Virus record (IMG/VR): IMGVR_UViG_3300042549_008656 | Coordinates: 1-45,431 of that record | Direction: 5' to 3' (one strand) | DNA: 45,431 nt | From: a virus | In this document: positions 4,688-38,017 of the stretch, piece after piece | Position numbering within the stretch: the stretch's first letter is position 1 | Layout of the letters: each line of letters starts with the position of its first letter | Notes under the pieces: generated by a model | Seen by the model: the letters and a program-made list of their open reading frames with translations, nothing else | The model's database searches: none | What the model was told of the DNA's origin: nothing | Position numbers and translations under genes: made by a program

Positions 4688-5596
4688 ATGGGTGCTTACA
4701 AACAATTTCTTGCTTCGGACATAATAGTTACTCCGTTTGAAGTAAATAAAGGATTTACATTCCAAGGAACAGAATTAACTGACCCAGATGTATCAATAGA
4801 TAGATTTTTAGGAACGAATATTGTATCACCAATATTCAATCCTTTATCTGACCCTACAACTGGTCAAATGTCAACTCAATACCAACGATTGGTATATAGT
4901 TCAATACAAGAACTTTATTATTCTAATTATTTAAGCTCAAGTTATGGGGATGTAGTTAATAGACCTATTTTAATTCCTGGATTTGATACTTCAGGAGATA
5001 AATTAATAGGCTCAACAAGTAACCCATCTTACAATAACTATTTACAAACTACACTTTCATACCCTAAATTTTTCCCTTCAGCATCTAACTCAATAATAGG
5101 AGTAATATCTATTCCAGTTAGATTATTTGGTGATTATATTCAACCAAGCTCATTTAAGTTTAGTACTTCAACAGATAGTATAACAGATGATGGAGAAGGA
5201 AATATTCTTAATGAAGTTGGAGCTATAGTAGGAAATATATTTTATCCTCATGGTTTAATTACTATTACATCTGAATCAAATTTTACTACAAATGATTTTG
5301 TAACTTCTTCATTCGTAACTTGTTCATTTTCAAGTTCATATACTATACAAGAAACACAATATAAAGTAACTATTAGAGAAAATGAATTTAGTTTTACTTT
5401 AAACCCAAGTGTAGTATCCAGCAGTGCTGAAGGTACATTATATGGATTTGTAACTGAATCTTATTTTTCACCTTACATTACTACAGTAGGTTTATATGAT
5501 GAAGCACAAAATTTATTAGCAATAGGTAAATTAGCTCAACCATTACCTTCCTCCCCAACAACAGATACAACAATATTAATTAATCTGGATAGATAA
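4688..5596 (+). CDS. Virion structural protein, paralogue of upstream gene at its C-terminus
   Basis: This 302-aa protein starts MGAYKQFLASDIIVTPFEVN. Its C-terminus (ITTVGLYDEAQNLLAIGKLA, then QPLPSS and ILINLDR) is the counterpart of the C-terminal module of the preceding gene. The N-terminal region FLASDIIVTPFEVNKGFTF is a pattern I associate with structural proteins of marine T4-like phages. Two ATGs lie close together (4684 and 4688); only 4688 opens the long frame. The stop overlaps the ATG of the following ADP-ribosyltransferase-like gene (TAATG), so a structural operon leads straight into the accessory block. Confidence 0.7.
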   Translation: MGAYKQFLASDIIVTPFEVNKGFTFQGTELTDPDVSIDRFLGTNIVSPIFNPLSDPTTGQMSTQYQRLVYSSIQELYYSNYLSSSYGDVVNRPILIPGFDTSGDKLIGSTSNPSYNNYLQTTLSYPKFFPSASNSIIGVISIPVRLFGDYIQPSSFKFSTSTDSITDDGEGNILNEVGAIVGNIFYPHGLITITSESNFTTNDFVTSSFVTCSFSSSYTIQETQYKVTIRENEFSFTLNPSVVSSSAEGTLYGFVTESYFSPYITTVGLYDEAQNLLAIGKLAQPLPSSPTTDTTILINLDR

Positions 5597-6036
5597 TGAT
5601 AAAATTAATAAATCTATTAAAAGAAATCACTGAGGGTAAACAAGTTGGTACATTATATCATTATACTGAAAATTGGTTATTAAAACAGATAATAGAGACT
5701 AATACTCTATTAGCACCTGTTAGTTTTACTAGACGTCAAAGTAATTGGGTAAGAGATTTTACTAATGGGGAATCTATAATGGTTATTGATGGAGATAAAT
5801 TATCTAACAATTATAAAATTCGGCCATACCAAGATATTAACCCATTTTTAGCTGATATAGATGATGAGTCACCTTCTTTTGAAGGTGGGAAAAATGAAGA
5901 ATATGAAGAACGTGTTGATAGAGACATTACTAATTTAAACAAATACATCATTAAAGTTATAATTTTAATACCTAATTCTGAAATAGAATCTTTATTAAAA
6001 GAAAAAAATATTTTATACGAAATAAAAAATGAATAA
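5596..6036 (+). CDS. Putative ADP-ribosyltransferase-like protein with N-terminal capsid-tag-like peptide
   Basis: The first 13 residues, MIKLINLLKEITE, match the tag shared by many proteins here and end in an I-T-E|G site that a gp21-type protease could cut. The rest carries LYHYTENWLLKQIIETNTL, then VSFTRRQSNW, IMVIDGDKLSNNYKIRPY and EYEERVDRDI. An early H-x-T, a central S-F-T-R and a late E-x-E-R element recall small phage and toxin ADP-ribosyltransferase-fold proteins. This is fold-level resemblance from motifs, so NAD+ use is not proven. T4 packages the ADP-ribosyltransferase Alt in its head, which makes a tagged ART-like protein suggestive. The gene overlaps the next by 8 bases. Confidence 0.5.
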   Translation: MIKLINLLKEITEGKQVGTLYHYTENWLLKQIIETNTLLAPVSFTRRQSNWVRDFTNGESIMVIDGDKLSNNYKIRPYQDINPFLADIDDESPSFEGGKNEEYEERVDRDITNLNKYIIKVIILIPNSEIESLLKEKNILYEIKNE

Positions 6037-8269: not shown

Positions 8270-9232
8270 ATGATCTCTTTAATTAAGATTTTAAATGAAA
8301 TAATTAATGAAGGAGGTAATGTCTTTGGCACTACTTCCTCCATTAAAAAAGAATATATACAACCAACACTAGCCAAATTTACTGCTGAACTTAAGAAAAT
8401 TTACCCAAAAGTAGATTTTAAATTTAACACATTGGGGTCTGTTGGTAAAAAAGACGAATCTGGAGATATAGATTTAGGTATGAGTGTTGATCAATTTATG
8501 ACTAAAGATGGTACACCATTATTAGCTAATTGGAATATTGATAAAGCTCAATTTGAGGCTTTATATGATAAAATTAGAAAACGTACAAGATCAGCTACTG
8601 AAGCTCAAAGTAAATTGAGAGCTATGTTAGAATTAATTGCTATTAACATTGAAGAAAAATCTCAATTTATAGATACTGATTTAAAAGCAGCGGGTGGTGG
8701 TTCAATATTTTGTACTTCTCCACAATATAACGAAAAGGGAGAAGCAATAGACGAAAAATCAGTACAAATTGATATCAATGTAGGTAATTTAGATTGGTTA
8801 AATTTTAGTTACTATTCAAACACATATAAAGACAATGTTAAAGGTTTACATAGAACACAGTTAATGTTATCTATGTTTCAAGCTTTAGGTATGACTTTTA
8901 ATCATGGTACAGGTGTTAAAGATAAAACAACAGGAGAAATAGTTGCTACTACACCTAAAGAAGCATTAGATGTATTAAATAAAGGATATGGTCTTAGTTT
9001 ATCTCAGGATATATTAAATGACTATTTTGAATTAATAAATTCTTTAAAGAAAAACTTATCTAAAGATAAATTAAATCAAGTATTAGATACATACTTAAAA
9101 ATATTAGATTCAACAAGAGCGGATATTCCATTTGACATTCAAGACTATTGGATTGCAAATCAAGATCGTTTAGGACTTAAAGGTAAATTTTTACCAGATG
9201 ATTCCAAATTAACTAAATACAAAAAAGCATAA
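8270..9232 (+). CDS. Pol-beta-type nucleotidyltransferase with capsid-tag-like N-terminus
   Basis: The N-terminus MISLIKILNEIINEGGNVFG carries the shared tag and two (L/I)-N-E sites (E10, E14). The nucleotidyltransferase core is LGSVGKKDESGDIDLG at 55-70: G56-S57 followed by the D66-x-D68 metal-binding pair. From memory, GGNVF followed by GKK..SGD(I/L)DL is also found in a nucleotidyltransferase conserved among cyanomyophages. The nucleotide and acceptor (RNA, protein or small molecule) are unknown. The gene is directly followed, with a one-base overlap, by a second nucleotidyltransferase domain at the start of the 984-aa protein, so the two probably act together. Head packaging is inferred from the tag. 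Confidence 0.75.
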   Translation: MISLIKILNEIINEGGNVFGTTSSIKKEYIQPTLAKFTAELKKIYPKVDFKFNTLGSVGKKDESGDIDLGMSVDQFMTKDGTPLLANWNIDKAQFEALYDKIRKRTRSATEAQSKLRAMLELIAINIEEKSQFIDTDLKAAGGGSIFCTSPQYNEKGEAIDEKSVQIDINVGNLDWLNFSYYSNTYKDNVKGLHRTQLMLSMFQALGMTFNHGTGVKDKTTGEIVATTPKEALDVLNKGYGLSLSQDILNDYFELINSLKKNLSKDKLNQVLDTYLKILDSTRADIPFDIQDYWIANQDRLGLKGKFLPDDSKLTKYKKA

Positions 9233-12186
9233 TGAGTGGATCTGCAGGTGGTAATCGAATTACAAGAGCGGTAGTAGAAGATACTGTTCAAGATTATATA
9301 AAAAAAGTATTATCTAAATTTCCAGGATTTAAAACAGCTAAAGTAACAGGTTCATATAACGCTGGTACTAAGCAAGATTTTGGAGATATAGATTTAATTG
9401 TTCAATTAGATGGTACAGATAAAAAGATAATCAAACAGGATTTAGCAAAGTATTTTGCTACTTTACCTGACTCAATAATTGTACCGTTTAAAAGCGATAA
9501 ATACAAAGGTAAAAAATCACTTAGTAGTGGTGAATTAGTTACTGTATTATACCCAATAGCTGGAGTACCAGGTGATTACGTTCAAATAGATAATATTGTA
9601 TCTATTAGTGAAGAAGAATCTACATTTAAAAATACATTTTTAGATTACTCAGCTGAAGTACAAGGTTTACTTTTAGGTTTAGCTAAAGTAGTATGTTTAG
9701 AAGAAGATCCTAAAGAAATATTTAAACGTTTAGGTATTACTAATGTGCCTGCACTTGAACCAAATCAAGAATATGAATTTAATTTGTCAGGTGCTGGATT
9801 AACATTACGTATAGTAACATTAGATAATTTTAAAGAAACTGAACGAACAGATGTTTGGAAATCCTCAGATTGGAGTACAGTTAAAAAATTATTTGCTAAT
9901 TACAATATAGATGTTGATTTTAAAACATTATTAAAAGAATTAGTTTCTAAATTAAAAAATCAACGTTCAAAAAATAGAGTTAAAGGTATATTTAAATCAA
10001 TGGTATCTATTAAAAGTGGAGAAGTTGGTACACCTAAAGGAGATAATAAACAAATATCTTTAGACGCCGTAGATAGTATGTTAGAAAATACATTATTTAA
10101 AGGTTTAGTTAAAGAATTACTATCAGGTTTTATAGCTGAAGAAATTACAAAAGAATCTATCGCTTTATACCCAGGTAAATTTAAACCACCTCATAAAGGC
10201 CATTTTGAAGTAGCTAAACAATTACTTGAAAAAGTAGATAAAGTAGAAATAATAATATCTCCTAAAGAAGTTGAAGGTATAACTGCTGAAAAAAGCAAAG
10301 CAGTTTGGGAATTATATAATAGATTATTAGGTGGAAAACTTGATATTAAAATTATCAACGAATCACCAATTAAATATGTTTTAGATACTATTGAAGCAAA
10401 CCCAAACAATCATTACGTAGCAGTATATGGTAAAGGAGAAGAAAGCAGATATAGAAACATAGGTAAAGATCCCCGTTATATGAATGCTGAAGTATTTGAT
10501 GGAGGAACTACTACTTCAGATGGTGAAAATATCAATGCTACTGACTTTAGAAATGCAATTAAAACAGGTGAAGACATTTCCCGCTTTATTCCAGATGGTA
10601 TAAATAAAAAAGTTGTATCTAAAGATTTAGAAACAGACAGTATAAACGAACATTGTGGATGTGATGATTCATTACCAACTACATTAAAGGATGCAATGTT
10701 ATCATTGACTACTTATATGATAGAAAATGATATGAATATAACACCTTTACCTAAAATTAGAATAATAGACGACGATTCTAAAAACGCTGAGGGTATATTT
10801 GGTAGTACTGCTTATTATAACCCAAATGAATGTTCGATAACGTTGTATACGTTGAATCGCCACCCAAAAGACATATTACGTTCATATGCTCACGAAATGA
10901 TCCACCGAATTCAAGATAATGAAGGTAGATTAAAAAATGTTGCTACTACTAATACAAATGAAGATAGCGACTTACTTGAACTAGAAAAAGAGGCTTACTT
11001 AAATGGAAATATTACGTTTAGAAATTGGGAAGATAGTTTAAAAAATCCAAAACCTGTAAAGGAAGTATATTTTTTAGATACAGAAAAGTATAATCGCCCA
11101 AGAACAATACATGAAAATCTTTGGCATACTTTAAATGAAATTACTTTAACATCAGATAATGCAGTTGAAATAAATGGTGATTTAACTAAAGGTAAATTTC
11201 AAGTAGGAAATATTAAATACACATATGATATAAAACAAGTATCAAATCCATATGATGATGGAGGAAGATTTTTTAATATAATGTTTCATCCTGAAGATAA
11301 TATAACTTCTACTCCTCAAGAAGGAAAAGAAAATTACATTAAAATTTTATCTACAATGTATAAAGTTATACTAGATTTTGCTGAAGAAGCAGAACCTGAG
11401 TATATTGGAATATCGTCATTAGATAATAATAAAAACTATCACATGGTATATGCTAATCTAACAGATAATAAATCTAATAGAATACCAGGATACTTTAGAA
11501 AAGATGTAAATTTAGAATTTAATACTCCTCAAGGTAAAGGTAGATTTGTGGTATTAAAAAGAAAAGATGAATCATTAAATGAAGGCAGATACGATACAGT
11601 GTCAAACAAATCATCATCAATGATTTTTAATAAATGGAAACAAGATTTTTTAGCAGGTAAAAAACAAAGTGTATTAAAAACATTTGTTGAAAGTGAGGAT
11701 GTAGAATTTGGTTTAGTTGCAACGCTTAAATTTAAAAATGAAGGTGAAGATCTACAAGTAGATGGTGGATTAGAAGAAACAGAAGATGGAAATGTCATTT
11801 ATGTTGATTTTAAAGTAGACAGAAATATACTACCAGAAATGTGGTCTGAAATATCAATGAATCTTAAAGACGTAATGCGTCATGAAATTGAGCATATAAC
11901 CCAAAATGATGAATTAAATTATCCATCTAAATTTATGGAAGACGATTTAATAGCTAGAATAGCAATTAATCAAGATCTTTTACCTAGAGGTGAATATTTT
12001 AAACTTGAAAAAGAAATAGATGCTAATTTACAAGGAATGTATTTTAGAGCTAAAAAGGAAAGACGTCCATTCACAGATATTATAAATGACTATCTTGACG
12101 CACAATCATTAACTCCTGAACAGAGAGAAGAAGTATTAAATCTTTGGAGACCTAGAGCAATTAAATTATCTTTACCAAAATTTTAA
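9232..12186 (+). CDS. 984-aa multidomain protein: nucleotidyltransferase, NMNAT-like, two HExxH-type modules
   Basis: Domains in order are as follows. Residues about 1-303 hold a pol-beta-type nucleotidyltransferase (TGSYNAGTKQDFGDIDLIVQ near 40-59). Residues about 309-473 hold a cytidylyltransferase/NMNAT-like domain, with YPGKFKPPHKGH (HxGH class) near 314-325 and INATDFR near 432-438 matching the ISSTxxR motif. Residues 474-636 have HEMIH (554-558), a zinc metallopeptidase motif. Residues 637-784 are unassigned. Residues 785-984 have HEIEH (884-888), a second peptidase-like motif. Candidate gp21-type sites FIAE303, SINE473, TLNE636 and SLNE784 fall near these boundaries, so the protein may be a polyprotein cut in the prohead. 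Parts of the domain set are known in marine T4-like phages; processing is inferred. Confidence 0.7.
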   Translation: MSGSAGGNRITRAVVEDTVQDYIKKVLSKFPGFKTAKVTGSYNAGTKQDFGDIDLIVQLDGTDKKIIKQDLAKYFATLPDSIIVPFKSDKYKGKKSLSSGELVTVLYPIAGVPGDYVQIDNIVSISEEESTFKNTFLDYSAEVQGLLLGLAKVVCLEEDPKEIFKRLGITNVPALEPNQEYEFNLSGAGLTLRIVTLDNFKETERTDVWKSSDWSTVKKLFANYNIDVDFKTLLKELVSKLKNQRSKNRVKGIFKSMVSIKSGEVGTPKGDNKQISLDAVDSMLENTLFKGLVKELLSGFIAEEITKESIALYPGKFKPPHKGHFEVAKQLLEKVDKVEIIISPKEVEGITAEKSKAVWELYNRLLGGKLDIKIINESPIKYVLDTIEANPNNHYVAVYGKGEESRYRNIGKDPRYMNAEVFDGGTTTSDGENINATDFRNAIKTGEDISRFIPDGINKKVVSKDLETDSINEHCGCDDSLPTTLKDAMLSLTTYMIENDMNITPLPKIRIIDDDSKNAEGIFGSTAYYNPNECSITLYTLNRHPKDILRSYAHEMIHRIQDNEGRLKNVATTNTNEDSDLLELEKEAYLNGNITFRNWEDSLKNPKPVKEVYFLDTEKYNRPRTIHENLWHTLNEITLTSDNAVEINGDLTKGKFQVGNIKYTYDIKQVSNPYDDGGRFFNIMFHPEDNITSTPQEGKENYIKILSTMYKVILDFAEEAEPEYIGISSLDNNKNYHMVYANLTDNKSNRIPGYFRKDVNLEFNTPQGKGRFVVLKRKDESLNEGRYDTVSNKSSSMIFNKWKQDFLAGKKQSVLKTFVESEDVEFGLVATLKFKNEGEDLQVDGGLEETEDGNVIYVDFKVDRNILPEMWSEISMNLKDVMRHEIEHITQNDELNYPSKFMEDDLIARIAINQDLLPRGEYFKLEKEIDANLQGMYFRAKKERRPFTDIINDYLDAQSLTPEQREEVLNLWRPRAIKLSLPKF

Positions 12187-12713
12187 TGTACAAACTAACA
12201 GACATATATAGACAAATTAAAGAAGAAGAAACACTTCCAAAACAACAGTATAAAATATACTGTGATATGGATGGTGTATTGTGTGACTTTGATAGACAAT
12301 TTGAACAATATGCTAAAATGAGTCCTAAAGCATTTGAATCTAAATTTGGAACAGATAAATTTTGGGAATTAATAGATAAGATAGGTTATATATTTTGGTC
12401 TAAAATGCCTTGGATGCCAGATGGAAAAAGTTTATGGGAATATATTAGTAAATACAAACCAGATTTATTATCAGCTCCATCACAAAAGGCATCATCACGT
12501 TATGGAAAACGTTTATGGGTAAGTGAAAATGTACCAGGAGCTAAATTAATATTAGCTGACAGAGAGAAAAAACAAAATTATTCAAAGAAAAATTCAATAC
12601 TTATTGACGATCGCACTGACACCATTAGTGAATGGAATAGTAATGGCGGTGTAGGAATATTATATACATCAACAACTAACACAATAGAAAAATTAAAAGA
12701 ACTAGGACTATGA
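12186..12713 (+). CDS. HAD-family phosphatase (5'-nucleotidase-like)
   Basis: The 175-aa protein has the HAD motif I YCDMDGVLCDFD (nucleophile D27, acid/base D29) and motif IV ILIDDRTD (D141, D142). This resembles the small 5'(3')-deoxyribonucleotidase-type HAD proteins common in phages, so nucleotide dephosphorylation is the best guess. Residues 1-13, MYKLTDIYRQIKE, resemble the shared N-terminal tag and precede the catalytic domain, which starts near residue 22. The start overlaps the stop of the 984-aa gene (TAATG) and its stop overlaps the next start (ATGA), so all are read as one operon. Confidence 0.78.
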   Translation: MYKLTDIYRQIKEEETLPKQQYKIYCDMDGVLCDFDRQFEQYAKMSPKAFESKFGTDKFWELIDKIGYIFWSKMPWMPDGKSLWEYISKYKPDLLSAPSQKASSRYGKRLWVSENVPGAKLILADREKKQNYSKKNSILIDDRTDTISEWNSNGGVGILYTSTTNTIEKLKELGL

Positions 12714-18476: not shown

Positions 18477-18847
18477 TGGATAAACTTAGAAAATTAATAA
18501 GAGAAGAAGTAATCAAAGCTTTAAAAGAAGGCTCTGAAGAAAAACTATATAGAGTTGATGGATTACTTGTTTCAGATAATAACAAGAAAACACAATCACA
18601 ATTATTATCAGATATCCGCGCGATAACTGGTATTACTACTATTGATGCAAACGAATACACACCTCGCTTACCTAAGGAGGACCGTTCGTATAATCGATTA
18701 ATGGTTAAAATTGACCCATATCCATATTTAAAAAATGGAGAATTTAATATAGAGACACTTAATCAAGTTATTGATAATATCAATAATATAGTTGGTGTAG
18801 TTACATTTAAAGTTGAAAATCCTCAATTAATTAATATTGGAATATAA
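18476..18847 (+). CDS. Small tagged protein, unknown globular domain
   Basis: The start was set at the ATG at 18476, which overlaps the upstream TAA; a TTG two codons earlier is less likely. The first 22 residues, MDKLRKLIREEVIKALKEGS, are the helical tag with I-R-E|E and L-K-E|G sites. The following 100 residues (LYRVDGLLVSDNNKKTQSQL, DIRAITGITTIDAN, LMVKIDPYPY, VVTFKVEN) look like a small alpha/beta domain with a ferredoxin-like strand order. I do not recognise its family. It is coupled to both neighbours by one-base overlaps. Confidence 0.6.
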   Translation: MDKLRKLIREEVIKALKEGSEEKLYRVDGLLVSDNNKKTQSQLLSDIRAITGITTIDANEYTPRLPKEDRSYNRLMVKIDPYPYLKNGEFNIETLNQVIDNINNIVGVVTFKVENPQLINIGI

Positions 18848-19188
18848 TGATTAAATTAACAGATATTTTAAACGAAATTAAATGTTGGGATGGTTACAAA
18901 CCAGGTACCCCTAAAACTAAAATTTCTTCTAAAACAGGTGAACGAATAAACAATTGTGTTCCCATTAAAGAACAATCCGAAGAATATCCCCCATATATGT
19001 ACTCGCCAGTTGGTTTTAGCTGCAAAGTATGTAAATATGTTGCATTCAACAAAGATGAAGACAGATGGACATGTAGTAATTCAAATTACCAAGAGTATAT
19101 GGGTACTCATTATTTAGTAGATAGTAATGGTGAACCGATTAAAGATCCATCTAAATGGTGTTCAAATTGGTTTTTACCTAAAAAATAA
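18847..19188 (+). CDS. Tagged small Cys-rich (zinc-ribbon-like) protein
   Basis: The 113-aa protein begins with the archetypal tag MIKLTDILNEIK. A short motif, CWDGYKPGTPKTK...NNCVPI, follows (residues about 13-38), a Trp-Gly-Tyr-Lys unit I know from other T4-like phage virion genes. A Cys-rich domain comes next: F-S-C-K-V-C-K-Y, W-T-C-S-N and W-C-S-N-W, four or more Cys that could bind zinc or iron-sulfur in a rubredoxin-like way. Two small modules joined behind a tag support the view that the tag is transferable. It follows its neighbour with TAATG overlap. Confidence 0.6.
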   Translation: MIKLTDILNEIKCWDGYKPGTPKTKISSKTGERINNCVPIKEQSEEYPPYMYSPVGFSCKVCKYVAFNKDEDRWTCSNSNYQEYMGTHYLVDSNGEPIKDPSKWCSNWFLPKK

Positions 19189-19203: not shown

Positions 19204-22008
19204 ATGGAAAACACGTACAAACTCATAACACACATAATAGGAAATTTATTCCCACTTAACGAATACTCAGATGGTGAGATGAATAGGTTAATGGATAAGT
19301 TTAAGGAGGAAGCAGATGATTTAAATATTAAAATTTCAGACGATCAACTTAAAAAATATATTGAACGTTTTGATCAATTAAAAAATTCACCTAAAATTGA
19401 GGAAAAAGATTTACGTAGATGGCCTTTATCTAAATTAATTAAATTAGTATCTTCATCTGAAGGAGCAGATTCTGAAGAAGAAGAAGGGCCAGATGTGCTT
19501 TATAGTGATAACGGATATACAATTTATAGCGGTGGAAATGAAGAATTATGTCAAAGACATAGAAATGATGTTCCATGGTGTATAACTAGAGGTTCATTTG
19601 GAAACTATAGATATAATGCTGGTAAAGAGTATCCATCCTTCTATTTAATTAAAAACACTAACCTACCTGAAAGTAATAGATTAAGTTTTGTTGCTATTCA
19701 AGTTATGAGTAATGGTCAATATGTTTGGACTGCTAGAGATAATAGCCCCAATGAATCTTCAAGAATGGGATGGAGTAGCTTAACTTCAGATATTCCTTGG
19801 TTAAATGAAATTCCTAATATTAGAAATATACTTAAAAATGTTCCTTTGTCATCAAAAGAAAAAGCAACTCAAGTATATAGTAAATCAGGAAGTGAAATAT
19901 CTATACGTGAATGGGTAAGTATGCCTTTTAATGAAAAAAAGCAATATTTAGTAGTTAGAAAAAAAAGTAAAATATTTAATGATATTACAAATGAAGAATT
20001 TGTAGCTAATTACTTACCTAACTATCCTCAATTAGCGGCATTCGCAGCCGTTACTCCTGGTGTAGTAGATCCATTATTATTACTTAAGAATTTAGATAAA
20101 TTTTCGGCTAATGATAGAAAATCTATAACTGCTAATTTACATAACTTAGTAGATACAAAAGAATTATCAAAAAATATTTTACCATTTGATGTTAAAAAAT
20201 TATTGACTGCTTTAAATAAGTGGGATATCAAAAATGACGAAAGAATATATGTAACTAAAAATGGTGAAGCTATAGTTAAATTAACATTTGGCTCAGACAT
20301 TAATGTAGGAGTTTTTACAGCAGAAGATGATTATCCAAGTATTAAGTTAAATAAAAGAACAGCTAAATTTTTATTAGATTACCCTAAAATAGATGAAATT
20401 CCATTTAATAATTTAATTAAATTAGCTAGCGATGATGTAATAGATAAAGATTTTATCACTAAAGTTATTCAAAAAGCAGAACAAGATCCAAACTCAGCTA
20501 TTATAGTTAAAGATACGGAAAATGGTAAAATATTATTAGATTCAAATTCATTTACTTCTTATGAAATTGAAGGAGACAAAATTTTACCAATCCCATTTAG
20601 TAGTGATGAAGTACAAAATATATTATCTTCAGAAACTGAAAATAGTGGTTTTCAAAAATCAGCAGTAGATTTAGTATTTACTAAAGAAAATATACCAACT
20701 CAAATAGATAAAGATTCATTTCTTAGTATATTAAAAAATACTCCATATGATAAAAGAACAAAAGATGGTCAGGTAATACTTCCTTTAGAAAATGGTATAG
20801 TGGCATTTAATACATATGACGATCCATCTCAAACTTCTCCATTTTCATTTGCATATGGTATGGGTAATTCTTCGTGGAATATGTTTAATAGATATGGTGT
20901 AACCTTAACTGCAGATGTTTGGAGAGAATATTTTAACTATTTAAGAAATAAAAATTTCTCATACACTGATGAACAATTAATGAGAGTTCTTAATAGTTTA
21001 AGTCAAAATAAAAAAGCATTTATAGAAGCATTGCCACCAATGGTTGCTAATAGTATGTACAAACCAGCAATTTTTAATGATACAGCTTATCTTGTTAATA
21101 CTGGAAGTCCAAGAGATAGTAAGATGATATCTAATACATCTGGAAAAATAGTTAAAGGAGCATTATCATCATCTCAAGCAAGTACAGCATTAGGAATAAC
21201 AGTTCAAGCACCAGCAGGACAAGCTCAAGCAGCACCTGCAGCAGCACAAGCAGGAGAACCTAGAAGAGGAAGACCAGCAGGAGTACCAGGTGCACCTAGA
21301 CCAGCAGCAGCACCAGTAGAAGGAGCTTTAGAAACATCTAGATTAATGTCTGCAAGAGGTTTAGAAACAGCATTTAATGGTTTACCTAGAGCAGTTAGAG
21401 TTAGATTAGCAACAGCAGTACAAGAAACTGGAATATCTAGAGGAGCTTCTCGTCGTAATAATCAATTAGGAAATAGAGGTAGAGTTGCAGCAACTTATAA
21501 TTCTGGACCTAGTAGCATATATTTTATTACATTAGCTAATGGTGCTAGAGTAGCGTCAATTAATATACAACCTGGAAATGGTAATTATGTACTCATTCCA
21601 GGCCAAGAATATGTTAGATTAAATTCACCAACTGAATTATTATCAGCATTACAAGCAAGAGAGCTAGCTGAAGTATTAATTGCTGAATTTATGTCTTCAA
21701 ACCCAACAATGATTGACGAAACTAAAAAAGTAGTAGATTTTTACAATAGAAAAATTAAAAACAAATCAAATATGAAATTAAATGAATTAAAAAATCTTAT
21801 TAAAAATGAGATTAGAGCTATACTAGCTGAAAACGCACCTGCAAAGGAGAAAGAAAAAACAACTACTCCAACTAAAACCCCAAGTAAGAATCCATTACAC
21901 CCAAATCCTAATACCACTCCAAAAACTGCTCCAAAAGCACAAAAAGAAGGTATGTCTAAAGGAATAGCTGATATTGTAAAAAAATATAAATCATTAAAAA
22001 AGAAATAA
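19204..22008 (+). CDS. Large internal/structural protein (934 aa) with Ala-Pro-rich segment and internal tag
   Basis: N-terminal MENTYKLITHIIGNLFPLNE resembles the tag and ends in L-N-E|Y. Residues 110-129 (GGNEELCQRHRNDVPWCITR) start a domain with the W-C-(I/T)-(T/S) pattern known from phage proteins of unknown function. The centre (200-650) is Lys/Asp/Asn-rich and may hold repeats. Residues 667-706 are a low-complexity Ala/Gly/Pro/Gln stretch, GC-richer than its surroundings. A small domain follows (RAVRVRLATAVQETGISRGA). Residue 857 is an in-frame Met starting MKLNELKNLIKNEIRAILAE, a complete tag-like segment, then a Lys/Pro/Thr tail. A large head-core or ejected protein is inferred. Confidence 0.6.
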   Translation: MENTYKLITHIIGNLFPLNEYSDGEMNRLMDKFKEEADDLNIKISDDQLKKYIERFDQLKNSPKIEEKDLRRWPLSKLIKLVSSSEGADSEEEEGPDVLYSDNGYTIYSGGNEELCQRHRNDVPWCITRGSFGNYRYNAGKEYPSFYLIKNTNLPESNRLSFVAIQVMSNGQYVWTARDNSPNESSRMGWSSLTSDIPWLNEIPNIRNILKNVPLSSKEKATQVYSKSGSEISIREWVSMPFNEKKQYLVVRKKSKIFNDITNEEFVANYLPNYPQLAAFAAVTPGVVDPLLLLKNLDKFSANDRKSITANLHNLVDTKELSKNILPFDVKKLLTALNKWDIKNDERIYVTKNGEAIVKLTFGSDINVGVFTAEDDYPSIKLNKRTAKFLLDYPKIDEIPFNNLIKLASDDVIDKDFITKVIQKAEQDPNSAIIVKDTENGKILLDSNSFTSYEIEGDKILPIPFSSDEVQNILSSETENSGFQKSAVDLVFTKENIPTQIDKDSFLSILKNTPYDKRTKDGQVILPLENGIVAFNTYDDPSQTSPFSFAYGMGNSSWNMFNRYGVTLTADVWREYFNYLRNKNFSYTDEQLMRVLNSLSQNKKAFIEALPPMVANSMYKPAIFNDTAYLVNTGSPRDSKMISNTSGKIVKGALSSSQASTALGITVQAPAGQAQAAPAAAQAGEPRRGRPAGVPGAPRPAAAPVEGALETSRLMSARGLETAFNGLPRAVRVRLATAVQETGISRGASRRNNQLGNRGRVAATYNSGPSSIYFITLANGARVASINIQPGNGNYVLIPGQEYVRLNSPTELLSALQARELAEVLIAEFMSSNPTMIDETKKVVDFYNRKIKNKSNMKLNELKNLIKNEIRAILAENAPAKEKEKTTTPTKTPSKNPLHPNPNTTPKTAPKAQKEGMSKGIADIVKKYKSLKKK

Positions 22009-23057: not shown

Positions 23058-23204
23058 ATGATTAAACTAATAGATATATTAAAAGAATTAGTAACTAAAA
23101 CCGAAATCATCTGTGATAAATGTGGATGGAGATGGAAAATTGCAGATGGCGGTGATGATTTATATATTTGTCATAAATGTAATCACGATAATACTCCAAA
23201 ATAA
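23058..23204 (+). CDS. 48-aa tagged zinc-ribbon miniprotein
   Basis: The 48-residue product starts MIKLIDILKELVTKTE, the consensus tag, and then has a complete small zinc ribbon: C-D-K-C-G-W (19-24) and C-H-K-C-N (38-42), around WKIADGGDDLY. The protein is essentially tag plus ribbon. Similar CDKCGW...ICHKC modules recur in T4-like phage proteins. The start follows the preceding TAA with no gap, and its TAA overlaps the next ATG, so translation is coupled. Binding of nucleic acid or protein is possible; no function is shown. Confidence 0.72.
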   Translation: MIKLIDILKELVTKTEIICDKCGWRWKIADGGDDLYICHKCNHDNTPK

Positions 23205-23797
23205 TGATCAAATTACTTGATATATTAAAAGAAATAAACAATCCTTCACCTGAAAATCTTTTAGGACAAGAACTTACTGATGATGAGAAAGGACGATATA
23301 GTGCGGTTTATTTATATAAACCCGATCCTTCTAAAGTCATCAAAGTTAATAAAAAAGGAATTGATAAAAAACTTAACCCTCAAGTAATAAAGGATCTTAA
23401 ATTAATGAATCAACACCTAGATATAGCTGCTGAAACATTTGAAATCACCCCACATTATGCAGTTATAGAAAAACTGAATCAACAAAAAACTAATGTAGAT
23501 ATGTGGGAATTTAGAGAAGAAATTAAAAAATATAGATCCACCAGCAAAATTCCTTATGATTTTAAGAAACATTATGATAGTGATTATTTTGTTTTAGAAT
23601 ACATAAAATTATATTTAATTAAAGGACAAATAGATAAAATGTTATCTAAAATAAATTCTCCAAAACTATTAAGTAAAATAAAAAAATACATAGTATTCAT
23701 TGATAAAGCTATTAAAACTTTTGGAGAAAATGTTGATATACATGCTGGAAATATAGGGTATGATGATAAAGGAAATTTAAAATTATTAGATATTTAA
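23204..23797 (+). CDS. Tagged protein-kinase-like protein
   Basis: The first 12 residues, MIKLLDILKEIN, are the tag. The remainder resembles a compact protein-kinase-like fold. GRYSAVYLYKPDPSKVIKV (30-48) ends in a beta-3 Lys candidate (K47), HYAVIEKLN (84-92) looks like a hinge, and DIHAGNIGYDDKGNLKLLDI (178-197) gives a catalytic-loop-like D178, N183 and a metal-binding D196. The chain ends right after the last Asp, so the C-lobe is truncated compared with full kinases. This fits phage kinases or pseudokinases; activity is not shown. With the tag it could be delivered with the DNA, as T4 delivers Alt. Confidence 0.6.
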   Translation: MIKLLDILKEINNPSPENLLGQELTDDEKGRYSAVYLYKPDPSKVIKVNKKGIDKKLNPQVIKDLKLMNQHLDIAAETFEITPHYAVIEKLNQQKTNVDMWEFREEIKKYRSTSKIPYDFKKHYDSDYFVLEYIKLYLIKGQIDKMLSKINSPKLLSKIKKYIVFIDKAIKTFGENVDIHAGNIGYDDKGNLKLLDI

Positions 23798-24060
23798 TGA
23801 AACCATACACCGACATAGAAGTTACTGATAAATACATTATTCGTGAATTTGATGAAAACATCGATCCAATCGAATTAATGTGGCATCGTGATAATGAAAG
23901 TCGTACATTAGAAATAATTGGTGAAACAGATTGGAAAATACAGTTAGATAATAAATTACCGATCTTACTAGAAAGCCATATATTTATACCAAAACACGAG
24001 TATCATAGAGTAATTAAAGGTACAAAAATATTAAAACTAAAAATACATAAAAATGAGTAA
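23797..24060 (+). CDS. Small cupin-like conserved phage protein
   Basis: The 87-aa protein has FDENIDPIELMWHRDNESRT, ETDWKIQLDNKLPILLE and FIPKHEYHRVIKGT. The WHRD and YHR histidines flank beta strands, the spacing of a single-domain cupin. I know this pattern as a small conserved T4-like phage protein of unknown role. It begins in the stop codon of the kinase-like gene (TAATG) and ends 8 bases inside the next gene. It has no tag, which is informative because its neighbours do. Confidence 0.62.
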   Translation: MKPYTDIEVTDKYIIREFDENIDPIELMWHRDNESRTLEIIGETDWKIQLDNKLPILLESHIFIPKHEYHRVIKGTKILKLKIHKNE

Positions 24061-24649
24061 ATTAAGACAACTAATCCGCGAATCGATTAATGAATATATT
24101 CGTGATATTGACGAAGCTGGAACAAAAGCCGGTTTAGGAGCTAAAATAGAAGCAACTGAAAGCGCTATTAGTAAACGTGAAAAAATGGCTGCTATGGAAG
24201 GCATCGATGAAGCTTATCATGAAATGCTTGATAAAGGCAAAATGAAAGAAATTGGTGGTGAAGTTAAAGCATTGAAAAAAAGTTTAGAAAAATTGAAAAA
24301 ACAATTAGACAAACTTAATTCAAAAGGAGGCAATAAAAGCGAAGAAAGCGAAGTAGAAGAAAAAGAAATCGTTGACGAAGTTAATGTTGACTTAGATGAA
24401 AACGAAGAAATGGAAACTGAAGGAATGGAATACGAAGGGATGGAAGAAGATGAAGAAAGATTTGATGCTGACGGTACTCCAAACGAAGAAGGAATGTATG
24501 ATGCAGAAGGAAATCGTATTTCATTTGCAGATATTGATAAAGCAATGTATGATGGAGAAGCAGAATATATGAATGAATCATTTTTACACATGCAAAAATT
24601 AGCTGGTGTAATTACTGAAGCTCAATACAAAGCTAAGTTAAATAAATAA
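24053..24649 (+). CDS. Acidic coiled-coil protein, tagged N-terminus and MQKLAG C-terminus
   Basis: The N-terminus MSKLRQLIRESINEYIRDID carries the tag with I-R-E|S and I-N-E|Y sites. A Lys/Leu coiled coil follows (KKSLEKLKKQLDKLNSKGG, residues about 77-95), then a very acidic segment (about 98-145) and the C-terminus FLHMQKLAGVITEAQYKAKL. The same motif in reversed position starts the protein at 36905. Composition is that of a phage core or scaffold protein, so a head-interior location is inferred. It overlaps the previous gene by 8 bases and is followed by two hairpins. Confidence 0.6.
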   Translation: MSKLRQLIRESINEYIRDIDEAGTKAGLGAKIEATESAISKREKMAAMEGIDEAYHEMLDKGKMKEIGGEVKALKKSLEKLKKQLDKLNSKGGNKSEESEVEEKEIVDEVNVDLDENEEMETEGMEYEGMEEDEERFDADGTPNEEGMYDAEGNRISFADIDKAMYDGEAEYMNESFLHMQKLAGVITEAQYKAKLNK

Positions 24650-31406: not shown

Positions 31407-33275
31407 ATGGCAAATACAGACATATTTTCAAGACTAAAAAGATTATTTTCAACGGATGTAATTATCCGAAATGAAGGTGGAAACGACATTAAAGTAGTTG
31501 ATGTTAACTCTATTCAAAATAGTGGTCAATATCAAACCAACTCATTAAGTGATAAGTATAGCAGAATTTATTCTCAAAACGCTACCTCACTTTATGGTCA
31601 ACAGTTAAATGTTAACTACCAATACTTAAGAGCACAATTATACTCTGATTATGATGTAATGGATACTGACGCTATTATCGCTTCAGCATTAGATATTATC
31701 GCTGATGAATGTTCATTAAAGAATGAAATGGGTGAAGTATTACAAATTCGTAGTTCAGATGAAGATGTACAAAAAATATTATATAACTTATTCTATGATG
31801 TTTTAAACATAGAATTTAACATGTGGTCATGGGTTAGACAAATGTGTAAATATGGGGATTTTTTCTTAAAATTAGACATTTCAGAAAAATTTGGAGTATA
31901 TAATGTTATTCCTTACACTGCATATCACATCATGCGTCAAGAAAATTATGACAAAGAAAATCCACAAGCAATAAGATTCGTATTCAGCCCGGATGGTTAT
32001 GTTGGAGGTACAGGACAATTTACAGTTCCAAACCAACAATATAATAACGAAAATGCAATTACTTTTGATAACTTCGAAATGGCTCATTTTAGGTTATTAA
32101 CTGATGTTAACTATCTTCCTTATGGTCGTTCATATCTTGAACCAGCTCGTAAGTTATTTAAACAATATACATTAATGGAAGATGCTATGTTAATTCATAG
32201 AATCTCTCGCGCACCAGAAAAACGTGTATTTTACATCAATGTAGGAGCTATTGCCCCAAATGAAGTAGAAAACTTCATGAAAAAGACAATATCTACAATG
32301 AAGAAAACTCCATATATGGATCATCAAACTGGTGAATATAATTTAAAATATAACATGCAAAACATGTTAGAAGATTTTTATATCCCGGTTCGTGGTAATG
32401 ATACATCAACTAAAATTGATACTACTAAAGGCTTAGAATATGATGGTATTAAAGATGTTGAATATTTAAGAGATAAATTGTTTGCTGCCCTTAAAGTACC
32501 TAAAGCATTTATGGGTTATGAAAAAGATTTAACTGGTAAAGCAACATTAGCAGCTGAAGATATTCGTTTTGCTCGTACAATTGATAGAATTCAACGTATT
32601 ATATTATCTGAATTAAATAAGATAGCATTAGTACATTTATATACTCAAGGATTTACAGGCGAATCATTAACTAATTTTGAGATTTCATTAACAACTCCAT
32701 CAATTATTTACGATCAAGAACGTATTGCGTTAATGAAAGAAAAGGTTGATTTAGCTAAAAATATTATGGAAGCTCAATTGTTACCAACTGATTGGATTTA
32801 CCACAATGTATTCCACTTCAGTGAAGATCAATTTGATGAATATAGAGATTTAATATTACAAGATGCTAAACGTAAATTCAGATTAGGTCAAGTAACTGAA
32901 GAAGGTAATGATCCATTAGAAACAGGTAAATCTTATGGTACACCACATGATTTAGCTTCATTATATGGTAAAGGTAGAACAATGTCTGACCCGGGAAATG
33001 TACCAGCGGGATATGGAGATGATGCTACTTTAGGACGTCCTGAGAAAAAAGTATCAAATATTAATACACAAGATAATGTGTTTGGTAAAGATAGATTAGG
33101 TAGAGATTCAATGAAAAACGATGATCAACAAAAATACAATGGTAAAATCAATGAAAATGCTCAAATTACATACCTAAAAAATAAACAATTCTTAACTGGG
33201 TTAGATAAAAAATTAGTATTCCAAACTGATAAAGCTAAAGAATCACTACTTGATACTAATCAATTGCGAGATTAA
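31407..33275 (+). CDS. Portal vertex protein (gp20-like)
   Basis: The 622-aa protein carries the gp20-type pattern: YDVMDTDAIIASALDIIADE (residues about 80-99), FEMAHFRLLTDVNYLPYGRS, then LEPARKLFKQYTLMEDAMLI and HRISRAPEKRVFYINVG. A further segment is KVPKAFMGYEKDLTGKATLA, then AAEDIRFARTIDRIQRIILS. It forms the dodecameric DNA entry channel at one capsid vertex, binds terminase during packaging and the neck afterwards. Length is above T4 gp20 (524 aa), mostly in the C-terminal tail. It lies three bases after the HNH gene; the normal order terminase-portal is interrupted only by that insert. Confidence 0.95.
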   Translation: MANTDIFSRLKRLFSTDVIIRNEGGNDIKVVDVNSIQNSGQYQTNSLSDKYSRIYSQNATSLYGQQLNVNYQYLRAQLYSDYDVMDTDAIIASALDIIADECSLKNEMGEVLQIRSSDEDVQKILYNLFYDVLNIEFNMWSWVRQMCKYGDFFLKLDISEKFGVYNVIPYTAYHIMRQENYDKENPQAIRFVFSPDGYVGGTGQFTVPNQQYNNENAITFDNFEMAHFRLLTDVNYLPYGRSYLEPARKLFKQYTLMEDAMLIHRISRAPEKRVFYINVGAIAPNEVENFMKKTISTMKKTPYMDHQTGEYNLKYNMQNMLEDFYIPVRGNDTSTKIDTTKGLEYDGIKDVEYLRDKLFAALKVPKAFMGYEKDLTGKATLAAEDIRFARTIDRIQRIILSELNKIALVHLYTQGFTGESLTNFEISLTTPSIIYDQERIALMKEKVDLAKNIMEAQLLPTDWIYHNVFHFSEDQFDEYRDLILQDAKRKFRLGQVTEEGNDPLETGKSYGTPHDLASLYGKGRTMSDPGNVPAGYGDDATLGRPEKKVSNINTQDNVFGKDRLGRDSMKNDDQQKYNGKINENAQITYLKNKQFLTGLDKKLVFQTDKAKESLLDTNQLRD

Positions 33276-34968: not shown

Positions 34969-36276
34969 ATGGCAACATTACAAGAACACTACAACCAAAT
35001 TAACGAAGGTAAAGGAAACAAGGCTCAGTTTTTAAAACAAGCTAGAGCATTATTCCCTCAACACTTTAATCAATATTCTGATTTCAATACCGTTACAAAC
35101 GTATTAAAATCTAAACAAATCATCAGTGAATCAAAGACTAATGTTGTCACTAAAGGATTTGATATCTACAATTGGAAAAAAATATTAGCTGAAGAAGTTA
35201 AAGCAGAGGAAAAAACAACATCTAAAGGTGTTATTGATATTCAAAAACATGCTTATGATAATGTAGACATGAAAAACGCTGATAATATTAACTTTAATGA
35301 AATCATGAAAGGATTTTATGCTGAGTTAAAAGATCCAAAAAACCACGACAAAACAGGTGATGAAATTAAAGCTATGGTTGTTAAAAACTTAGCTAAAGAT
35401 TGTTTACACTATACTAAAGATGGTATGTTTGGTGAAAAAGGATTAGGATTTACTACTGAAGCACCAGGTTTAGGTACTCCAAAAGAACCTAAAGGTAAAT
35501 TTAAATCATCAGGATATGGTGATTTGGATACTGAAGTAAAAATCAAAGAACCAAAATCAAACACTCAAGACTCATTAGGTGATAAAGAAGCTAAAACCTC
35601 AGATCCTAAAAAAGTTAAAGAAATGCCTACAACTCCTCAAAATTCAGCTGGTGTTAAAAAAATGAAAACACCTGGTACTGAAAAAACAATGAAGTTACAA
35701 GAAGGTGTAGTTAATGAAAACGAAGCAGTTTACGATCAAATAGCTGATTTAGAACATGACTTAATGTTAGCTAAAAACGACGAACATAAAGCTGAAATTG
35801 AAGCAAAAATTAAATCATTAGAAGCAGAATTATTAAAAGAATCTAAATTAATTTCTTTGGTTAGAACAATGATTAGAGAATCATTAAACGAAGGTGCTAA
35901 TGATTGGAATACATTATTTGATTGGTTAAAACAATTTTCAACTGATAAAGGAGAATTTTTATCAAAAAACAACATATCCTCAGGAGTATTTTTAGAAAAA
36001 AAATTAACATCTGGAGAAGTAAAAGTTGAAGATTTAGATAAAATAGCTAAAAAAGACGGTACGGTTTTCTCTAAATTACCAGTATACAACAGAAATATAA
36101 CTGAAAATGAAACTGATTTAGATGCTAGATTAAAAAAATATGTAGAAAACGAAGTACCTACAGGTAACTGGAAATCTATCAAAAATTATTATAGAGAAAT
36201 GACCCAAGATAAACCAGACCCTAAAAGAAGATATTTTGAATTAGTTGATGGAATTTTAAAAAAACACGGATATTAA
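34969..36276 (+). CDS. Prohead core-like protein with gp21-type cleavage site
   Basis: The 435-aa protein starts MATLQEHYNQINEGKGNKAQ, a tag-like helix with I-N-E13|G14. Residues about 80-165 form a domain (NADNINFNEIMKGFYAELKD, LHYTKDGMFGEKGLGFTTE), followed by a low-complexity Lys/Pro/Thr linker (165-245), a coiled coil (257-290) and RTMIRESLNEGANDWNTLFD. Its S-L-N-E308|G309 is a strong gp21-type site. After that comes a small C-terminal domain ending KRRYFELVDGILKKHGY. Two predicted sites around a linker suggest processing in the prohead. The gene is next to the protease. Confidence 0.6.
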   Translation: MATLQEHYNQINEGKGNKAQFLKQARALFPQHFNQYSDFNTVTNVLKSKQIISESKTNVVTKGFDIYNWKKILAEEVKAEEKTTSKGVIDIQKHAYDNVDMKNADNINFNEIMKGFYAELKDPKNHDKTGDEIKAMVVKNLAKDCLHYTKDGMFGEKGLGFTTEAPGLGTPKEPKGKFKSSGYGDLDTEVKIKEPKSNTQDSLGDKEAKTSDPKKVKEMPTTPQNSAGVKKMKTPGTEKTMKLQEGVVNENEAVYDQIADLEHDLMLAKNDEHKAEIEAKIKSLEAELLKESKLISLVRTMIRESLNEGANDWNTLFDWLKQFSTDKGEFLSKNNISSGVFLEKKLTSGEVKVEDLDKIAKKDGTVFSKLPVYNRNITENETDLDARLKKYVENEVPTGNWKSIKNYYREMTQDKPDPKRRYFELVDGILKKHGY

Positions 36277-36277
36277 T

Positions 36278-36880
36278 ATGAAACCATTACTTATAGAAGT
36301 TACTCCATTTGCTATATCACCACAGTCTCTTAACGAGTCTCGTGATAGAGTATCTGGTAACCCATTAGTTGAAGGTATATTAGCTACGTGTGAAGTGAAA
36401 AACGGAAACGGTAGATACTATCCAAAAGAATTATGGGATCGCGAAATTGATAAATACAACGTTTTGGTTAGAGAAAATAGAGCATTAGGTGAATTAGATC
36501 ATCCAGACTCTCAAATCATTAACTTAAAAAACGTATCTCACAACATCAAGAAAATTTGGTGGAACGGAGATAAAGTAATAGGTAAAATAGAAATATTACC
36601 AACACCATCAGGAAACATCTTAAAAGCACTTATTATGAGTGGTATTAGCGTAGGTGTATCATCTCGTGGAATGGGTAGTTTAAAACAAGTAGGTGAAGTA
36701 TTAGAAGTACAAGATGACTTTGAATTATTATGTTGGGATTTTGTTTCAACACCATCTAACCCAGGTTCATATATGACTCCATTAAACGAAAGTAAAATAA
36801 CAACATTAAATCCATATAATAAAGTAGATTCTATTGTAACAGAAATACTTTGTTCGAATGGCGCTTGTCCAATATTTTAA
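36278..36880 (+). CDS. Prohead core protease (gp21-like)
   Basis: The 200-aa protein is a T4 gp21-type serine protease. It shows GELDHPDSQI with catalytic His75 and SGISVGVSSRGMGS with a Ser at 128/129, plus a beta-strand core (KIWWNGDKVIGKIEILPTPS). Near both ends are (L)-N-E sites: S-L-N-E20|S and P-L-N-E171|S. These match self-processing at both ends, as in T4. In T4 it cuts scaffold, capsid protein and tagged internal proteins after (L/I)-x-E; the many such sites in this window suggest a large substrate set. It begins two bases after the upstream gene. Confidence 0.93.
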   Translation: MKPLLIEVTPFAISPQSLNESRDRVSGNPLVEGILATCEVKNGNGRYYPKELWDREIDKYNVLVRENRALGELDHPDSQIINLKNVSHNIKKIWWNGDKVIGKIEILPTPSGNILKALIMSGISVGVSSRGMGSLKQVGEVLEVQDDFELLCWDFVSTPSNPGSYMTPLNESKITTLNPYNKVDSIVTEILCSNGACPIF

Positions 36881-36904: not shown

Positions 36905-38017
36905 ATGAAAAAATTAATAAACGAACAATTTAAAAGAATGCAGTTATTAGCTGGATTAATTACTGAATCACAGTTAAACGAAGCAGCAACTGCTGAAGAT
37001 ACTATAGATAAAGCTGCCTCAAATTTAGCTATAAAAAAGTTAAATGATATGGGTGTTAAAATAGATAATATGAAAGGAGCAGAATTAATGAAAAAATTAG
37101 ATAGTTCTCGTTATTCTGAGATGTTCCAAATTATGGCATCATATTTTCAAGATCAGGATGCTTTAGAAAAAGTAAAAGCTTCAATGGTATCTGATGGATA
37201 CCCAGTAGGAGGTAATGTTGCTGGATCCCAACCAACAAATGAATTATTTGGAATGGGGAAATCAAAAAGCCAATTCACTCCGGGACAAAAAGTTACTTAT
37301 ACTGCAAGTAATGGGAGTACTGCTTATAATAAAGATTATATGGTAGGTAAAGTATTTCCTAATGGAGAAATAGGTCTTTATGAACCAAATGATGAATTAA
37401 AAAAGATGGGAATAACTGCAAAATCTACAGAATTAAAATTAGCTGAATCAACCGATATCGAAAAATCAGTAAACGAAGCATTAAGAAAATTTCGTAGAAT
37501 GTTAAGTGAAAATCCTGTAAAGATGAGTATGCAGGAATTTATGCCTAAAATAGATGAAATAACTAAAAAAATGAACATCCATCTAATACCTCAAGTATTA
37601 GAATATAATGATTTTATTTCTAAAATGAAAAGTATAAAGGGAGATTTTAGTAAGGCAGGAGTAGCAGGTGATAAAACAGCAGTGATAGCAGCTACAGGCC
37701 CTAACGGCCAAGCTGATAGCTTGTGTTGTTTTAGTCTATCTGACGATCCAACCAATCCTAAAGATTCATTTAAGTTAATTGACAATTTTTACGAGGTAGT
37801 TAAAAAAGAATTTCCTACCACTACATTTAAACAATATGGTTCAACACCTTATGATGTAACCGGTGAATTTGCAAAGCTACATGGTGAGAAAGTCGTGGTT
37901 GGAATGGCTGTGATTACAAATTTTGTAAAACCTGCAGCAGCAGCCCCAACATCTGAATCAACTAATATTGAAAAATCAGTAAATGAAGCATTAAGAAAAT
38001 ATCGTAATAAAAAATAA
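36905..38017 (+). CDS. Head-cluster protein with MQLLAGLITE tag and duplicated helix
   Basis: The 370-aa protein begins MKKLINEQFKRMQLLAGLIT, then ESQLNEAA, giving I-N-E, I-T-E|S and L-N-E|A sites within 27 residues. A helical N-terminal domain (about 35-100) and a beta-rich segment (FTPGQKVTYTASNGSTAYNK) follow. The helix EKSVNEALRKFRR (about 183-196) is repeated at the end as EKSVNEALRKYRN. Between the copies lies a separate globular domain of about 150 residues (LCCFSLSDDPTNP, TTFKQYGSTPYDVTGEFAKL). It follows the protease and precedes the scaffold, so it is probably a substrate or core protein. Confidence 0.6.
   Translation: MKKLINEQFKRMQLLAGLITESQLNEAATAEDTIDKAASNLAIKKLNDMGVKIDNMKGAELMKKLDSSRYSEMFQIMASYFQDQDALEKVKASMVSDGYPVGGNVAGSQPTNELFGMGKSKSQFTPGQKVTYTASNGSTAYNKDYMVGKVFPNGEIGLYEPNDELKKMGITAKSTELKLAESTDIEKSVNEALRKFRRMLSENPVKMSMQEFMPKIDEITKKMNIHLIPQVLEYNDFISKMKSIKGDFSKAGVAGDKTAVIAATGPNGQADSLCCFSLSDDPTNPKDSFKLIDNFYEVVKKEFPTTTFKQYGSTPYDVTGEFAKLHGEKVVVGMAVITNFVKPAAAAPTSESTNIEKSVNEALRKYRNKK
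37444..37496 (+). repeat. Direct repeat, first copy (partner 37954-38006)
   Basis: A 53-base segment coding ESTDIEKSVNEALRKFR recurs 510 bases (170 codons, in frame) downstream with 5 differences. It brackets a domain-sized insert within the same gene. Confidence 0.85.
37954..38006 (+). repeat. Direct repeat, second copy (partner 37444-37496)
   Basis: The second copy codes ESTNIEKSVNEALRKYR and ends the gene. Most of the differences from the first copy are synonymous or conservative, which points to purifying selection on both copies since duplication. Confidence 0.85.

Follow-up and report, generated by a model that had tools for sequence, protein, structure and literature searches.

A candidate polyprotein of packaged enzymes with predicted capsid-protease sites at its module borders in a T4-like phage

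The virus record IMGVR_UViG_3300042549_008656 of IMG/VR (45,431 nucleotides, analysed at full length and called the window here) derives from a T4-like phage and encodes the gp20 portal at 31407, a Peptidase_S77 prohead protease at 36278 and the gp23 capsid protein at 39253. The gene at positions 9232–12186 is predicted, with a probability of about 0.8, to encode a polyprotein of enzymes for packaging that is cut apart in the head by the S77 protease of the phage. The 984-amino acid (aa) chain appears to be composed of five modules, four of which are recognisable or probable enzymes. The modules are shuffled among relatives, and a short site ending in Glu is conserved at the junctions whichever modules are joined. 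Cleavage, packaging, injection and the targets of the parts are what we infer from these sequence features. A preliminary description of the window had claimed a 984-aa chain of four parts with protease-type sites near its domain borders and had proposed its processing in the prohead; the open reading frame (ORF) and every motif named there, including FIAE303, SINE473, TLNE636 and SLNE784, lie where claimed (Table 1), and the number of parts is revised to five.

Predicted cut sites at the module borders

In one sequence the proximity of the four sites to domain borders is not significant, because the chain contains 23 [LIVMF]xE triplets (LxE below) and a 38-aa stretch drawn at random from chains of this kind holds at least one with a probability of 0.49. 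Column-wise conservation of the 23 triplets was considered as a discriminator and rejected, as triplets in folded cores such as LEE158 are also conserved, so that the four sites are not singled out, and BLAST alignments break at the borders. What sets the four sites apart is where they lie, namely at module borders throughout the shuffled relatives and in or next to low-confidence linkers of the structure model. In the AlphaFold model the predicted local distance difference test score (pLDDT) is below 50 only at residues 286–306, 469–479, 608–629, 780–783 and 893–903, and four of these five stretches part the modules. E303 and E473 lie inside such stretches, E784 one residue away and E636 seven residues away. 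The structure prediction that the preliminary description had called for therefore places none of the four sites in a folded core; as aliphatic-x-Glu sites outside folded cores, they resemble S77 substrates. The segment KELLSGFIAE (294–303) has the spacing of the T4 IPIII peptide: its residues 4, 7 and 8 are hydrophobic and its residue 10 is Glu. E303 is the only junction with the full targeting-plus-processing pattern; E473, E636 and E784 show the processing residues 8 and 10 only.

Relatives were brought in because the single sequence gives no more than chance. They comprise 36 loci for the whole chain, 21, 8 and 80 for modules 5, 4 and 3 respectively, and Flavobacterium phage vB_FspM_immuto (host LMO8; immuto below), the one cultured member of the lineage. 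A tblastn search of phage records found relatives in immuto only, plus weak module-3 matches in two Synechococcus phages. When reduced to 91 non-redundant proteins, the relatives exhibit 17 different module orders. The border preceding module 5 carries [LIVMF]xE directly before G[x]YD in 24 of 24 non-redundant occurrences, and the module 4 border carries [LIVM]xE at exactly that place in 14 of 14, each with a background of 2.1% per position. The tripeptides before module 5 are of 13 different kinds in which Glu (P1) is fixed, P3 is always I, L, M or V and P2 is free; constraint at P1 and P3 with a free P2 is what the gp21 rule expects. The upstream partner of module 5 may be module 3, module 4, a zinc-ribbon-like stretch, a nucleotidase, an unnamed stretch or a 10-residue start peptide alone, the last as in L059, where module 5 is a separate protein that starts MIKLIDILKE/GAYD (the slash marks a predicted cut). 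In front of the module of nicotinamide mononucleotide adenylyltransferase (NMNAT) type, LxE is present in all 47 occurrences with upstream sequence, and 34 of these have the full targeting spacing (10% of random windows).

The module ends follow a related pattern. Where module 3, 4 or 5 ends the chain, no more than a few residues precede the stop, and LxE is found after the module end in 3 cases out of 74 (absent in 71), whereas LxE occurs within 26 aa in 48 of the 50 cases in which another module comes next. Module 4, for example, ends VLKRKDV-stop in several relatives but continues as VLKRKDESLNE/GRYD here, while module 5 ends SLPKF-stop here and continues as SLPLFE/NEE, SLPLQE/NLI or LPAIQE/ where more follows. 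The NMNAT, HEMIH and HEIEH modules also start separate proteins, in which the LxE site ends an N-terminal capsid-targeting-like peptide. The segment at E303 aligns with the N-termini of separate NMNAT proteins, such as MNQLVKELVKGLFE/QEKPKVIALYGGG, and the 473 site aligns with those of separate module-3 relatives, such as MLSLVKELIQPLLQE/GCGC; the latter begin '...LLQE/GCGC', '...ILQE/NCGC' or '...ILQE/DCGC'. The exact junctions, the alternation of LxE and stop and the match between separate peptides and an internal site all point to processing in the prohead, as had been proposed, with cleavage itself predicted from sequence; the module order, which the same proposal was meant to explain, is shuffled and not fixed.

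Further rearrangements are seen among the relatives. Five of them (L047, L052, L055, L056/L057 and L064) have, as part of the chain, a 5'-nucleotidase domain that is related to the downstream gene. A zinc-ribbon-like stretch of ~35 aa (C..CGW.W...DGG.D.Y.CHKCGHDN and similar forms) turns up between modules of different chains in the manner of a movable insert (L004, L022, L026, L045, L051, L118 and L123). In L029 and L031 the nucleotidyltransferase (NTase) module is detached from the rest of the chain and has a decayed targeting-like helix (NLIQELISGFIKNNK) at its end, and the NMNAT starts a separate gene with its own peptide.

The five modules

Module 1 is a Pol-beta-type NTase. Foldseek analysis of its AlphaFold model returned the Pol-beta fold with DNA polymerase lambda as the best match (E 7e-6), and the catalytic pattern is retained in 28 of 28 relatives; the match to Pfam NTP_transf_2 falls below the cut-off. 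Module 2 has a Rossmann-like fold with HxGH and, C-terminally, an S/T-rich R motif, the features of NMNAT/CoaD-type enzymes. It provides the sole Pfam match of the chain above cut-off (PF01467, CTP_transf_like), also passes TIGR00125, and is structurally similar to CoaD/NadD/NadM adenylyltransferases (Foldseek, best E about 1e-5). The equivalog cut-offs of NCBIfam are not reached, and the NMNAT-type assignment does not fix the substrate. Both domains had been named in the preliminary description.

Modules 3 and 5 contain zincin motifs, HExxH with an acidic ligand downstream. In module 3, HExxH is present in 78 of 78 relatives and the later Glu is invariant, with weak Pfam metallopeptidase matches; in module 5, HExE[HY] is present in 27 of 27, one of them HEIEY. 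No match against the PDB confirmed a zincin fold for either module. Module 4 showed weak Foldseek matches to the GNAT proteins NatE, SpeG, AtaT and PA3944 (E 0.04–0.4, TM about 0.3–0.4). The AlphaFold model was built with 51 relatives and has a mean pLDDT of 82.5 and a predicted template modelling score (pTM) of 0.37, which indicates that the domains are well folded and that their mutual placement is not fixed. A second structure model had poor confidence for module 5 and was therefore used for no modules other than 3 and 4.

Table 1. Features of the candidate polyprotein and of associated genes in the window
Feature	Position	Strand	Remarks
Candidate polyprotein gene	9232..12186	+	984 aa; 1-base overlap (TAATG) with preceding and with following gene
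Module 1, residues 1-285, Pol-beta-type NTase	9232..10086	+	pattern GS..DFGDIDL..QIDN; Foldseek to DNA polymerase lambda
Capsid-targeting-like 10-mer KELLSGFIAE, residues 294-303, ending at predicted cut E303	10111..10140	+	T4 IPIII-like spacing
Module 2, residues 306-460, NMNAT-type adenylyltransferase	10147..10611	+	HKGH 321-324, INATDFR at 434
Predicted cut SINE473, then HCGC	10639..10650	+	pLDDT < 50 at 469-479; starts of separate relatives
Module 3, residues 480-606, zincin-like metallopeptidase	10669..11049	+	HEMIH at 554 and conserved Glu downstream
Predicted cut TLNE636, then ITL	11128..11139	+	[LIVM]xE at this border in 14/14 module 4 occurrences
Module 4, residues 637-780, alpha/beta domain, weakly GNAT-like fold	11140..11571	+	Foldseek
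Predicted cut SLNE784, then GRYD	11572..11583	+	[LIVMF]xE/G[x]YD in 24/24; pLDDT < 50 at 780-783
Module 5, residues 785-984, HEIEH zincin-like domain	11584..12183	+	HEIEH at 884
Upstream gene, second NTase-like protein	8270..9232	+	N-terminal targeting-like peptide MISLIKILNEIINE, then predicted cut /GGNVF
Downstream gene, 5'-nucleotidase	12186..12713	+	N-terminal targeting-like peptide
Prohead protease, Peptidase_S77 (T4 gp21) family, proposed cutter	36278..36880	+	Pfam PF03420 E 9.8e-31, above cut-off; PHROG head maturation protease
Small protein, exact T4-spaced peptide MIKLINLLKE	5596..6036	+	peptide spacing
Small protein, exact T4-spaced peptide MIKLTDILNE	18847..19188	+	peptide spacing
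Kinase-like protein (weak ABC1 match), exact T4-spaced peptide MIKLLDILKE	23204..23797	+	peptide spacing
Protein with exact T4-spaced peptide MSKLRQLIRE	24053..24649	+	peptide spacing

Genomic setting and targeting-like peptides

The gene for the 984-aa chain is placed among late/head genes and is flanked by two genes whose products carry targeting-like peptides. The upstream neighbour was called NTase-like from its motif, with no match in Pfam, and four of its relatives begin M-GGN[VI]F, which is directly after the cut predicted here (MISLIKILNEIINE/GGNVF). The exact IPIII spacing (hydrophobic 4, 7 and 8; E10) is present in 5 of the 50 proteins of the window, compared with 0.11 expected from shuffles. 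In immuto a looser motif is present in 16 of 30 proteins of the head-gene region versus 26 of 188 elsewhere, a total of 42 where 22 are expected from shuffles.

Several other proteins of the window exhibit related features. The small protein at 5596–6036 looks ADP-ribosyltransferase-like by eye, without a family match. A 934-aa protein (19204–22008) has an N-terminal module of ~190 residues in common with residues 645–850 of the chain in L017 (27% identity, E 1e-16) and a PLNE/YSDG site at residue 20; owing to these two features, it may be another targeted multi-module protein. A 435-aa protein (34969–36276) adjoins the protease and contains an internal TMIRESLNE/GANDW, a further candidate for internal cutting. 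The core/scaffold-like protein (36905–38017) begins MKKLINEQFKRMQLLAGLITESQLNE and contains two copies of EST[DN]IEKSVNEALRK, one internal and the other C-terminal.

Proposed processing, alternatives and known systems

The chain would be drawn into the assembling prohead core mainly via the amphipathic capsid-targeting-like segment 286–303, and the S77 (gp21-type) protease encoded at 36278, once active, would cut after E303, E473, E636 and E784, and perhaps after E295. This would free the Pol-beta NTase, the NMNAT-type enzyme, the HEMIH zincin, the GNAT-like module and the HEIEH zincin inside the head. The freed enzymes would enter the next host with the DNA, beside other targeted proteins (the 5'-nucleotidase, the second NTase and the kinase-like protein), and would act at once on host proteins and on nucleotide and NAD pools; NAD metabolism would be the expected target of the NMNAT, and host proteins those of the zincins. 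Speculatively, NAD+ could be restored by a packaged NMNAT during the opening minutes of infection, the period in which NAD-depleting defences are active. The balance leans moderately towards a broader proposal for a widespread lineage of aquatic T4-like phages, in which interchangeable cargo modules are strung together with capsid-protease sites as standard connectors. One targeting signal would load several enzymes in fixed stoichiometry, their separation would follow only after prohead entry, and recombination at the connectors would produce new cocktails.

A number of observations weigh against the processing of a packaged polyprotein. Embedded targeting sequences at all four junctions were considered and rejected, E303 alone fitting the full pattern; E473, E636 and E784 could be linkers with another role, as their targeting half is absent. 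Module 1 has no N-terminal targeting peptide, and 26 NMNAT-first relatives (the L111–L147 group, e.g. L131 3143 and L117 3296) begin M-IALYPG without one; no in-frame upstream extension was present in the four of these chains that were checked. Some NMNAT-first proteins have LLD in place of the expected Glu, and LxE, found before module 3 in 66 of 76 cases, is absent from the tested window in the other 10. The relatives are not independent, so the junction counts overstate the number of events, and the comparison of stops with LxE is given without a P value because, in addition, the stretches are of unequal length. Modules 3–5 were given no family by Pfam, NCBIfam or PDB-profile searches and have no solved relative by sequence or fold. 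In the open-access library searched, data on proteolysis or packaging were found neither for this phage nor for immuto, and no virion proteomics of immuto was found.

It is improbable that the chain is instead a polyvalent protein in the sense of Iyer et al., packaged and then released into its parts, in the head or in the host, by its own zincin modules 3 and 5. Self-processing has been proposed for phage proteins that combine multiple domains, among them one or more zincins (PMC5512222), and both zincin motifs are intact in the relatives, but small neighbours without any zincin also end their N-terminal peptides in LxE, the LxE between the NMNAT and its upstream part is present whatever zincins follow, and hydrophobic-x-Glu with a free P2 is the shape reported for prohead proteases. 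A stable, uncut multi-enzyme chain in which the LxE triplets are remnants of N-terminal targeting peptides that came with the genes when they fused is likewise unlikely. Such an origin would agree with the modules that exist as separate genes with these peptides and with the E303 segment, which resembles a full one. However, E473, E636 and E784 keep the processing half and lose the targeting half, the reverse of random decay; LxE also appears at module ends that elsewhere bear only a stop, and the type of residue is constant at P1 and P3 but variable at P2. Very unlikely is a late-expressed intracellular multi-enzyme that is not packaged and whose sites reflect linker composition bias. The lack of virion proteomics in the literature searched and the 26 relatives without a targeting peptide would suit it, yet linker composition does not explain the exact borders in 24 of 24 and 14 of 14 occurrences, and the gene stands among head genes between two genes with targeting-like peptides.

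The polyprotein proposed here would join two known kinds of phage protein, the polyvalent proteins and the internal proteins of T4. Polyvalent proteins of phages and conjugative elements combine disparate enzymatic domains (zincins, Pol-beta NTase and possibly GNAT), lie near late/head genes, are shuffled among relatives and are predicted to be injected with DNA, and an analogy with viral polyproteins was drawn by the authors (PMC5512222). The 984-aa chain, the product of a single ORF, also joins disparate activities (NTase, NMNAT and two domains with zincin motifs), and its window also encodes the gp20 portal, S77 protease and gp23. Release of the polyvalent proteins is attributed to zincin or assemblin-like domains within the chains (PMC5512222), whereas the junctions here bear the predicted site of a separate, trans-acting protease of the gp21 family, one linker is capsid-targeting-like, and modules are found, too, as separate proteins with targeting-like peptides.

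The closest cultured case is the immuto homologue QQO92100.1 (MW353176), the gene of which likewise lies between NTase-like and 5'-nucleotidase genes and which has modules 1-2-3-5 with a VMAE/GRYD junction. It differs in the absence of module 4 and in an upstream neighbour without a targeting peptide, and is annotated only as the nicotinamide mononucleotide adenylyltransferase NadR. The 18.6–37 kb region of the immuto genome also contains annotated 7-deazaguanine DNA-modification genes (QueC/D/E/F, FolE and DpdA).

No multi-enzyme chain released by a prohead protease was found described in the open-access library, which holds few of the subscription journals. The ejection proteins of the phiKZ-like giant phages SPN3US and phiKZ are head proteins that enter the host by ejection and that a gp21-like protease cuts after Glu at short x-x-E sites; in the text consulted, long propeptides are removed from single cargo and release of several enzymes from one chain is not described (PMC5694885). 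In T4 IPIII, ten residues suffice for packaging, of which 4 and 7 serve targeting and 8 and 10 processing, which is blocked when residue 10 is Asp (PMC9026906). IPI–III and Alt share with the present system the 10-residue N-terminal peptide (hydrophobic 4, 7 and 8; Glu 10) and an S77 prohead protease, and Alt is cut at both termini (PMC9026906, PMC9958956). The T4 proteins carry one targeting peptide per cargo, whereas five cargo modules stand in one chain here with sites between them. LxE at module borders together with the 10-residue IPIII-type peptide could serve as a sequence rule for recognising injected enzymes and their mature ends. If the proposal is correct, the chain would be a tailed-phage polyprotein processed by the capsid protease of the same virus, and this would link polyvalent injected proteins with the capsid-targeted internal proteins of T4.

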